A stretch of 64,000 nt of DNA from Reichenbachiella sp. (GTDB lineage: Bacteria; Bacteroidota; Bacteroidia; Cytophagales; Cyclobacteriaceae): positions 3,086,001 to 3,150,000 of the forward strand of contig NZ_JAWPMM010000001.1 in the NCBI RefSeq assembly GCF_033344935.1. Direction: 5' to 3'. Made by a program: the position numbers and the translations under genes. Every line of letters starts with the position of its first letter. The first letter of the stretch is position 1. Below the pieces are notes generated by a model. That model saw only the letters and a program-made list of their open reading frames with translations, searched no databases and was not told where the DNA came from. Below, piece after piece: positions 17,421 through 22,935 of the stretch.

Positions 17421-17798
17421 TTATTTTTCTTCTTTGTCTTCCTTCTTAGGGGCAGCTTTCTTAGCAGCTGGCTTCTTAGCTGCAGTTTTCTTAGCTGCAG
17501 GCTTTTTTTCTTCCTTAGCTTCAGCTTCCTTTTTAGGAGCAGCCTCGGCTGCCGCAGCCTTTTTCTTAGGAGCAGCTTTTTCTACTGGAGCTTCTACTAC
17601 AGCATCTTTCGGTGCCTCTTCTTTTTTAGCAGCGGCTTTCTTAGGTGCTTTAGCAGCAGATTTGAACTCCTCTTTCATTTGCTCAATATCTACTTGCTTG
17701 ATCACTGGAGTAGCGCCTAATCTCTGGATTGTAGCCACTTTAGTCTTAGCGACCACTTTATTTCTTCTTCCTTTTCTTTTTAATCTTGTTACAGCCAT
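17421..17798 (-). CDS. Lys/Ala-rich histone-H1-like protein
   Basis: 125 residues. A basic N-terminus (MAVTRLKRKGRRNKVVAKTK) and a short acidic segment (DIEQMKEEF) are followed from about residue 50 by low-complexity AAKKPAAKKAAPKK-type repeats with scattered Glu. The composition resembles histone-H1-tail proteins such as AlgP or the bacterial Hc1/Hc2 group, so nucleic-acid binding is a reasonable inference. The start is the ATG at 17798. It has its own terminator. The low-complexity tail also opens a long reading frame on the other strand, which I take as an artefact. Confidence 0.8.
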   Translation of the reverse strand: MAVTRLKRKGRRNKVVAKTKVATIQRLGATPVIKQVDIEQMKEEFKSAAKAPKKAAAKKEEAPKDAVVEAPVEKAAPKKKAAAAEAAPKKEAEAKEEKKPAAKKTAAKKPAAKKAAPKKEDKEEK

Positions 17799-21983: not shown

Positions 21984-22015
21984 AAAAAAAAAGCCCCGAA
22001 TAATTTCGGGGCTTT
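21984..22015 (-). terminator. Attenuator terminator before pheA
   Basis: On the minus strand: AAAGCCCCGAA, loop ATTA, TTCGGGGCTTT, then nine Ts in total: a perfect 11-bp intrinsic terminator placed before pheA's start, not after a gene. With the leader peptide just upstream it marks transcriptional attenuation of the aromatic operon. The end of the leader gene reads GGGGTT (plus 22054-22059), which can pair with AGCCCC of the terminator's first arm, a plausible antiterminator when a ribosome stalls upstream. Confidence 0.9.
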
Positions 22016-22043
22016 GCTATATTTCTTCAAAAACACTAAAGAA

Positions 22044-22121
22044 CTATTCTTTCAACCCCTTTGCTATCGCATAGAAATAAAAGTAATAATAGTTCCAGAA
22101 AAATGTTCTTGTGTTGTTCAT
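22044..22121 (-). CDS. Aromatic-rich leader peptide of the phe/tyr operon
   Basis: An unlabelled 25-codon gene: ATG at 22121, TAG at 22046-22044. Residues 6-17 read TFFWNYYYFYFY: four Phe, five Tyr and one Trp, so about 10 of 12 are aromatic; the remaining residues are an ordinary short tail (AIAKGLKE). Such clustering next to a terminator and a phe/tyr synthesis operon is the classic attenuation arrangement: scarce charged tRNA-Phe/Tyr/Trp stalls the ribosome in the cluster and the downstream terminator does not form. Trp codons make sense because DAHP synthase also feeds tryptophan. The mechanism is inference; the ORF and hairpin are seen directly. Confidence 0.88.
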   Translation of the reverse strand: MNNTRTFFWNYYYFYFYAIAKGLKE

Positions 22122-22181
22122 CTTGTTATTTAACGATTCAAATGTGCTCATCAAATTTTTAATATCAAAACATCTGCAAGA

Positions 22182-22209: not shown

Positions 22210-22347
22210 GAAAACACTATCATATTTTGCAATTATTCTATCAAAAACTGATTAGTTACTCTAATTTGCAACTTTGTTTAATGTCATTGCATTAAGATAA
22301 GTAGTTTGATCGCAGCGTTCAATTTTCCTTTTACATTAAAAAAATAT

Positions 22348-22935
22348 ATGTCCTCAATTAAGACACTCTTCGTAATCATTCTTTTCACCTGCCTGGGACA
22401 AGCATCTTTTGCGCAAGGCATCATCAAGCGCGAAGCACTGACTAGTATGGACCGTGGTGTGGAGGCTATGGAGGCCGGGTACTACGAAGCGGCAGATCAG
22501 TTTTTTAGGGACGCCTTGAGTAAAATGACCAAACTACCAAGTAATCTGGCTTACTATTTTGGCAGAAACTCTTATCATCTAGGCAAATACAAACAAGCCA
22601 TCAACTGGTTGAATAAGTATGTAGAACTCAAAGGGACTACCGGCCAATTCAATGATGAGGTCCGAGAATATTTGGAGTTAGCGAATGAGGCATTTAAGAA
22701 TCAACGAGAAGCTGAGATTGGAAGAACGCAAAAACAATTGACCACACAAGGCTATTTTGATTGTCCTTCAGATTATATGCATTGTCCGCTCTGTAATGGA
22801 ACCGGCGTCTTGATTACCCCTGGCAAGTTTGGCGCTGTTTATCAAACTTGCCCTTACTCTGGACTATCCGGAAAACTTACCTGCGACGAGTACAACTTAT
22901 ACCTCCGAGGAGAGTTGGAGAAGAAAGTAGAATAA
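22348..22935 (+). CDS. Secreted TPR protein with DnaJ-like zinc-finger motif
   Basis: 195 residues from the ATG at 22348 (MSSIKTLFVIILFTCLGQASFAQ, a clean signal peptide; an in-frame extension to 22306 is unlikely). Two or three tetratricopeptide helices follow (GVEAMEAGYYEAADQFFRDALSK; NSYHLGKYKQAINWLNKYV). The C-terminal part is cysteine-rich: FDCPSDYMHCPLCNGTGVLI...CPYSG..GKLTC, containing a CxxCxGxG-like motif as in DnaJ. Metal binding is inferred. The role is unknown. It is divergent from the aromatic operon and convergent with the next gene, with 4 bp between them. Confidence 0.8.
   Translation: MSSIKTLFVIILFTCLGQASFAQGIIKREALTSMDRGVEAMEAGYYEAADQFFRDALSKMTKLPSNLAYYFGRNSYHLGKYKQAINWLNKYVELKGTTGQFNDEVREYLELANEAFKNQREAEIGRTQKQLTTQGYFDCPSDYMHCPLCNGTGVLITPGKFGAVYQTCPYSGLSGKLTCDEYNLYLRGELEKKVE

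Follow-up and report, generated by a model that had tools for sequence, protein, structure and literature searches.

How is transcription controlled in the four-gene aromatic operon that lies in our window, the whole stretch of 64,000 nucleotides of Reichenbachiella sp. DNA analysed here? A first-pass annotation of the letters had proposed that an unlabelled, aromatic-rich leader peptide and a terminator placed before pheA attenuate transcription of the operon, and that three amino acids are sensed by the one leader. We read the element as a ribosome-mediated transcription attenuator of a known kind, and put the probability of this reading at about 0.9.

All of the parts lie on the minus strand. 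The operon begins with pheA, encoding prephenate dehydratase (21957-21127; Pfam PF00800 (PDT), E 4e-52), and continues with a class I/II aminotransferase gene (21130-19973; PF00155, E 2e-62), tyrA, encoding prephenate dehydrogenase (19976-19086; NCBIfam NF006307, above its cut-off) and aroFQ, encoding a DAHP synthase/chorismate mutase (19072-17960; PF00793 and PF01817). The aminotransferase drew 71 NCBIfam matches and, among the 25 listed, all fell under their cut-offs. The joints between pheA and the aminotransferase gene and between that gene and tyrA are 4-base overlaps. These Pfam and NCBIfam assignments bear out the order leader, terminator, pheA-aminotransferase-tyrA-DAHPS/CM that had been proposed. 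The genome is a single contig of 4.88 Mb; it gave one PF00793 match, that of aroFQ, and zero PF01474 matches, so a single DAHP synthase was found in it. Its PheA and the one of Reichenbachiella faecimaris (order Cytophagales) share 95% identity. Past the operon there is a 125-residue Lys/Ala-rich ORF (17421-17798, minus) with no Pfam or NCBIfam match.

The leader ORF has 25 codons (MNNTRTFFWNYYYFYFYAIAKGLKE) and occupies 22121-22044, with its ATG at 22121-22119 and a TAG stop at 22046-22044. Ten of 12 residues in the stretch TFFWNYYYFYFY are aromatic, and the control codons that we used in stall modelling (F7 F8 W9 N10 Y11 Y12 Y13 F14 Y15 F16 Y17) span 22071..22103; the only Trp codon in the leader is W9, at 22095..22097. 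The terminator that follows is a perfect 11-bp stem with an ATTA loop. Its 5' arm, region 3 (AAAGCCCCGAA, 22015-22005), would also serve as the 3' strand of the antiterminator, its 3' arm is region 4 (TTCGGGGCTTT, 22000-21990), and it ends in a run of nine T residues (21992-21984), three of which are shared with the stem. Its folding energy is -17.7 kcal/mol (z -4.9), a value equalled by none of 200 shuffles. The leader ORF, its 10/12 aromatic stretch and the terminator with its nine T residues at 22015-21984 thus agree base for base with the first-pass annotation. Product codons are clustered in the ORF, and the terminator lies between the ORF and the first structural gene, as in known attenuators.

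Two further segments complete the set. Region 2, GGGGTT (22059-22054), lies within the last leader codons as the 5' strand of the putative antiterminator and is complementary to AGCCCC (22013-22008) within region 3. Region 1 (22073..22096) pairs, in both the minimum free energy and the centroid fold, in two places: GGAACUAUU (22096-22088) with AAUAGUUCU (22048-22040), and CUUUUAUUUCU (22083-22073) with 22060-22049, the stretch that contains region 2. From this arrangement we infer a transcription start, translation of the leader, ribosome stalling and a response to amino acids that would fit together as follows. RNA polymerase would start some 10-15 nt ahead of the leader ATG, with a ribosome trailing it. 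A shortage of charged Phe- or Tyr-tRNA would stall the ribosome in the aromatic run, at codons up to Y17, disrupting the region 1 hairpin and leaving region 2 (GGGGUU) exposed just past its leading edge; pairing of regions 2 and 3 would then block the terminator and allow pheA-aminotransferase-tyrA-DAHPS/CM to be transcribed. Scarcity of Trp may act in the same way through W9. With charged tRNAs available, the ribosome would pass A18 and mask region 2, and the terminator would form from regions 3 and 4; termination is predicted as well when the leader is not translated, region 1 then sequestering region 2.

A start of transcription in the expected place has indirect evidence from the DNA just ahead of the leader. 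The Bacteroidota -7 consensus is TAnnTTTG. A probable promoter of this type lies at 22139..22169, with a -33 box TTTG (22169-22166), a 19-nt spacer and a -7 box CACATTTG (22146-22139) that is one change from the consensus; it ends 17 nt ahead of the leader ATG. Boxes with an identical 19-nt spacing are found in a second Reichenbachiella locus (L002), and they are legible by eye in the alignment of four species. Across a non-redundant set of 71 leaders, described below, the pattern TTG-N17-23-YANNTTTG was present in 33, at a median of 20 nt ahead of the ATG, whereas 200 shuffles gave 0.96 on average.

To ask how far the arrangement extends, we collected 153 pheA loci, the window's included (30 from a search within the same family, 23 from named contigs and 100 more), and scored as a leader any ORF ahead of pheA with at least 7 aromatic residues in 12. 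An equivalent leader was present in 75 of the 153, a count in which three loci with less than 150 nt of upstream DNA (L006, L048 and L053) are scored as having no leader. A scripted search found a terminator in 73 of these 75, and the remaining two (L081 and L088) show imperfect hairpins on inspection by eye. An aromatic run at the same place in so many loci is beyond chance. Leaders occur in the orders Cytophagales, Flavobacteriales, Sphingobacteriales, Marinilabiliales and Bacteroidales; named carriers include Reichenbachiella, Zunongwangia (Flavobacteriales), Mucilaginibacter (Sphingobacteriales) and Carboxylicivirga (Marinilabiliales), joined by metagenome-assembled genomes titled Bacteroidales. 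Among the 100 loci L054-L153 a leader was found in 45 and not found in 55, with 12 of 27 family labels represented, and in a later sample none was found near most aroFQ genes. Judged from these sequences, the leader is common but not universal in Bacteroidota. Removal of two duplicates (L045 and L051) from the 73 gave the 71 leaders used hereafter. In two loci (L034 and L055) there are two tandem aromatic leader ORFs less than 400 nt upstream of pheA, which are possible double attenuators.

The aromatic run is common to the four Reichenbachiella genomes in alignment; over the phylum the leader is too variable for a single alignment. This pattern of conservation bears on whether the RNA itself is the sensor, as a riboswitch, a T-box or a protein-binding attenuator in which the peptide is secondary. 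The leader RNA is strongly structured, the whole 147 nt folding with a z of -6.5, as such an element would be. Against it, an Rfam search of the window matched a tRNA and nothing else, so that the leader is indeed unlabelled as far as Rfam goes: it matched no T-box model and did not reach the gathering score of the amino-acid leader families such as Phe_leader. Moreover, both the sequence and the region 1 structure vary among families while the aromatic codons and their spacing persist. We consider an RNA sensor of this sort very improbable, and the attenuator in which the ribosome reads the aromatic codons far the better account.

For the antiterminator, we searched the spacer that follows the last aromatic codon of each leader, as far as the terminator, for the best ungapped complement of the terminator 5' arm, with 300 dinucleotide shuffles apiece. 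A complement was found at p<=0.05 in 62 of the 71 leaders and at p<=0.01 in 37. Region 2 fits the arm of its own species (score 20.8) better than the arms of other species (mean 15.2; Wilcoxon 3e-13), a better fit that amounts, at the level of sequence, to natural covariation; the pairs include GGGACT/AGTCCC, GAGGCTTTGT/ATAAAGCCTC, GAGGTGGG/CCCGCCTC and GAGCAGGAT/GTCCTGCTC, among others. Counted from the start of the last aromatic codon, region 2 begins at 12.8 +/- 2.6 nt, and in 66 of the 71 leaders it begins at 9-17 nt, against 15.2 for shuffled and 4 for reversed spacers. Distances to the stop codon are scattered, at -11.1 +/- 9.4 nt (range -31 to +4). What stays constant is how far a ribosome stalled in the run would reach, the position of the stop not being held, and this geometry matches what ribosome stalling needs.

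In the window itself the GGGGUU/AGCCCC helix is 6 bp long and is not significant when taken alone (p 0.25), and the same is true of the other Reichenbachiella helices (p 0.26 for L002, 0.23 for L031 and 0.14 for L032). It is credible because of its position and its relatives: region 2 begins 14 nt from the start of the last Tyr codon, which is the family spacing. A composite antiterminator with an inner hairpin has a predicted energy of -15.8 kcal/mol, near that of the terminator. The GGGGTT-AGCCCC pairing suggested at the outset is supported in this way by position and relatives; the general proposal of attenuation by stalling draws its support from the recurrence of leader and terminator in many families, the complementarity of region 2 to its own arm and the fixed spacing.

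These data also bear on the idea that the terminator is constitutive, acting as an insulator or as the end of a neighbouring transcript, while the ORF is a product of chance or a small functional protein. The nearest large ORF upstream of the leader (22306-22935, plus) is divergent, so its transcript is not terminated here. Complementarity of region 2 to its own terminator arm, in register with the aromatic run rather than with the stop codon, speaks against the idea, as do peptide sequences outside the run that, by eye, differ between families. We give this idea very little weight.

To examine the attenuator as a switch, we folded each leader with a mask that stood for the ribosome and extended 12 nt beyond the first A-site base, an assumed edge in a model that is of equilibrium and not kinetic. 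In the window the modelled probability of pairing between regions 2 and 3, P(2:3), is 0.90 for a stall at F7, 0.97 at F8, 0.97-0.98 from W9 to Y17, 0.64 at A18 and 0 from I19 onwards. Moving the leading edge from +10 to +16 nt shifts this cut by about one codon either way, with W9-F16 staying at 0.97 or above. With the ribosome left out of the model, region 1 sequesters region 2 and P(2:3) falls to 0.00. Over the whole set the mean was 0.88-0.95 for stalls 10 to 1 codons ahead of the last aromatic codon and 0.84 at that codon, falling to 0.53, 0.16 and 0.03 at one, two and three codons beyond it (n 71, 71 and 69). Across the 71 leaders, then, the model predicts an antiterminator that is exclusive with the terminator and is freed by a stall at the control codons. 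The no-ribosome mean over the same leaders was 0.69; therefore, within the model, the region 1 lock of Reichenbachiella is not general. The contrary expectation, no antitermination from a stall at W9 on the grounds that region 1 would stay free, is contradicted by the modelled value of 0.97. For stalls at the Trp codon of the other Reichenbachiella leaders, P(2:3) was 0.98 (L031), 0.91 (L002) and 0.42 (L032).

The leader is also associated with a DAHP synthase gene. Among 98 of the 100 additional loci (L094 and L128 were too short), 44 have the leader together with a downstream DAHPS/CM gene and 52 have neither. Each kind of mismatch occurs once: L090 has a leader and an operon ORF weakly similar to DAHP synthase (115 bits), and in L092, in which PheA and aroFQ are fused in one 719-codon frame, no leader was found. 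For a proposal that could be undone by relatives keeping the operon but lacking leader and hairpin, these figures are mostly favourable. Less favourably, 14 of the 20 same-family loci in this set keep pheA-aminotransferase(-tyrA) with no leader and no aroFQ behind. Among 18 same-family genomes in which pheA lacks a leader, nine have an aromatic leader directly ahead of a copy of aroFQ, eight of them with a scripted terminator; coordinates place these aroFQ genes on the strand of pheA and a few kb ahead of it. The remaining nine mostly have tandem aroFQ genes, and no leader was found within 500 nt of the copies examined. Thus the leader, where found, heads the cluster with the DAHP synthase gene. 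Among L154-L183, part of the window's family has two tandem aroFQ genes, and other members have a TYFSFFYFYFRPQGRIGAAYCL-type leader ahead of aroFQ.

Which amino acids does the leader sense? The claim of three holds well for two of them, Phe and Tyr codons both being present in all 71 leaders, and less well for Trp, which occurs in the run of just 28 of the 71 (27 by the stricter F/Y rule). An attenuator that senses Phe and Tyr alone, with a Trp codon as incidental as the Asn, Thr and Gly codons of the run, has in our judgement even odds. In its favour, Asn, for which no role is evident, is likewise enriched strictly inside F/Y runs (37 where 6.5 are expected); trpE has a leader of its own, with at least two Trp residues in eight, in 29 of the 29 genomes in which trpE was located; and an excerpt of PMC11802643 describes the Corynebacterium leader AroR as having Tyr codons even though Tyr is without effect. 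Against it, the 124 non-F/Y residues of the runs include 17 Trp where 1.4 are expected, a comparison that treats related leaders as independent, and because Asn is enriched too, the Trp enrichment alone is no proof of Trp sensing. The TGG codon is kept in all four Reichenbachiella leaders, and in the window it stands at a site where, in the folding model, a stall would free region 2. Sensing of Trp, in addition to Phe and Tyr, is thus a possibility. A third point against an incidental Trp codon is that Trp is rare in the leaders of genomes with a second DAHP synthase, and exceptions to this exist.

By a second synthase we mean an extra AroF-like synthase scoring 76-111 bits. It is a protein of about 340 residues, present in other genomes. 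In all 12 cases in which its gene and trpE were both located, coordinates place the gene on the strand of trpE, about 5-6 kb past where trpE ends. Among the first 57 genomes, Trp was in the run in 0 of 19 with a second synthase, one of which (G182) has two AroF-like synthases and no aroFQ, and in 18 of 38 without. Two genomes with two aroFQ genes each (G065, with Trp, and G169, without) had been scored as having a single synthase, and rescoring them as having a second gives 1/21 vs 17/36 (P 0.0009).

Later samples give a weaker picture. The first fresh sample (52 regions, 51 genomes) yielded pheA-side leaders in three single-synthase and five second-synthase genomes, few because aroFQ is mostly not behind pheA there; two leaders (L221 and L231) are without a scripted terminator. 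It also held a leader ahead of aroFQ without Trp (L263) and another (MNWHKAYFFYYSPSRD, L259/G426) whose Trp precedes a weak run by four residues, which makes it a counter-example if the rule is applied literally. A weak leader (MLFICLYSGYFCWFCQ, L262/G410), with a terminator, ahead of pheA in a second-synthase genome has Trp inside and is likely a further counter-example; a six-F/Y filter had excluded it. The second sample comprised, first, the 18 named contigs that have a leader (five of the 23 have none). One of these, L034, is a clear counter-example, a metagenome-assembled genome with two aroFQ genes, a further DAHP synthase and Trp in the run; the other 17 are all single-synthase, with Trp in nine. 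Secondly, 29 regions gave 23 usable leaders (five had no pheA leader, and G375, the genome of L044, was dropped), with Trp in 0 of 4 second-synthase and 8 of 19 single-synthase genomes; here L276, L284 and L285 are without a scripted terminator and L298 was scored as having Trp by eye, the rule having missed it through a tie. The later samples alone give 1/10 vs 18/39 (P 0.066), 2/12 for the first figure when L263 and L259 are added (P 0.095) and 3/13 with L262 as well (P 0.20); their exceptions are one clear and two weaker. In the pooled data Trp is found in 1 of 29 second-synthase genomes against 36 of 77 others (P 0.0018 by simulated Trp evolution on the PheA tree; in the window's family, 0 of 12 against 9 of 13), or in 3/33 vs 34/73 after the rescoring (P 0.0001), where the pooled figures include the data that prompted the idea and keep the duplicates L045 and L051 as separate species. 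The rarity of Trp codons where a second synthase exists is therefore a lead only, significant when pooled but not in validation alone. One might imagine that leader codons are tuned to the wiring of the pathway, an operon with the sole DAHP synthase tending to keep the Trp codon and sensing all three amino acids, and the codon being lost where a second synthase, linked to a Trp-attenuated trp operon, exists; this is a tentative proposal, made somewhat less likely by L262, that we would sooner bet against.

Other leaders and codons were recorded along the way. The Asn codons in the runs of the 71 leaders are mostly AAC. Of the 29 trpE leaders, 25 have three Trp residues in the eight and 27 have a scripted terminator. 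The window's own genome has a Trp leader (L184, MINNNTNWWWSILQAKCDRT) with a terminator ahead of trpE (G000:C1:2941137-2942483) and a His leader (L188, MNIRTQHHLHHMIAQAR) with a terminator ahead of hisG (G000:C1:96086-96628).

Our findings point to attenuation, with trpE leaders alongside, as a widespread but non-universal control of aromatic amino-acid synthesis in Bacteroidota. About 100 natural variants make the geometry of the ribosome readable from sequence, with some 13 nt between the last control codon and region 2, and the same set allows one to test whether leader codons track pathway wiring. In the open PMC literature, a scope outside which many subscription papers lie, we recognised no description of the phylum-wide element. 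Vitreschak and colleagues (FEMS Microbiol Lett 2004) are said to have predicted some attenuators in Bacteroidetes/Chlorobi, a prediction that may have priority for part of the finding.

Among known systems, the pheL-pheA and trpL leaders consist of a short ORF rich in product codons and mutually exclusive antiterminator and terminator structures ahead of a biosynthetic operon, and the window element resembles them in all of these respects. It differs in mixing Phe and Tyr (and Trp) codons and in its operon, pheA-aminotransferase-tyrA-DAHPS/CM; in Bacteroidota, moreover, region 2 lies inside or just past the ORF with no set place relative to the stop, and Rfam gives no match. In E. coli the leaders of ilvGMEDA (Leu, Val, Ile) and thr (Thr, Ile) are multivalent. 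Reportedly, AroR of Corynebacterium glutamicum was first described by Neshat (2014). The excerpt of PMC11802643 that covers the enterobacterial pheL and trpL also describes AroR, a Phe-Tyr-Phe leader before aroF (DAHP synthase), in which stalling raises transcription under Phe limitation and Tyr is without effect. Like AroR, ours is a Phe/Tyr leader; it lies ahead of pheA in the window and, in the nine genomes noted above, directly ahead of aroFQ. Unlike AroR, it belongs to another phylum and another operon and has more than the three aromatic codons described there. In an excerpt of PMC9723704, pheA of Flavobacterium psychrophilum and other Flavobacteriaceae has a transcribed, structured 5' element that is conserved between genera and has no Rfam hit, and 'strong clues' are noted for leader-peptide attenuation ahead of amino-acid operons. 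For Bacteroides thetaiotaomicron, an excerpt of PMC7366714 mentions long 5' UTRs that contain short ORFs resembling leaders and does not name pheA, and PMC2965389, as far as its excerpt goes, counts among the closest literature. The F. psychrophilum element shares gene and phylum with ours, and Zunongwangia, of the Flavobacteriaceae, has the aromatic leader; the section of PMC9723704 on 5' cis-regulatory RNAs gives no aromatic run or antiterminator and is confined to Flavobacteriaceae. As in ilvGMEDA and thr, a single leader in the window brings together codons for several related products, the difference being that here the set is aromatic.
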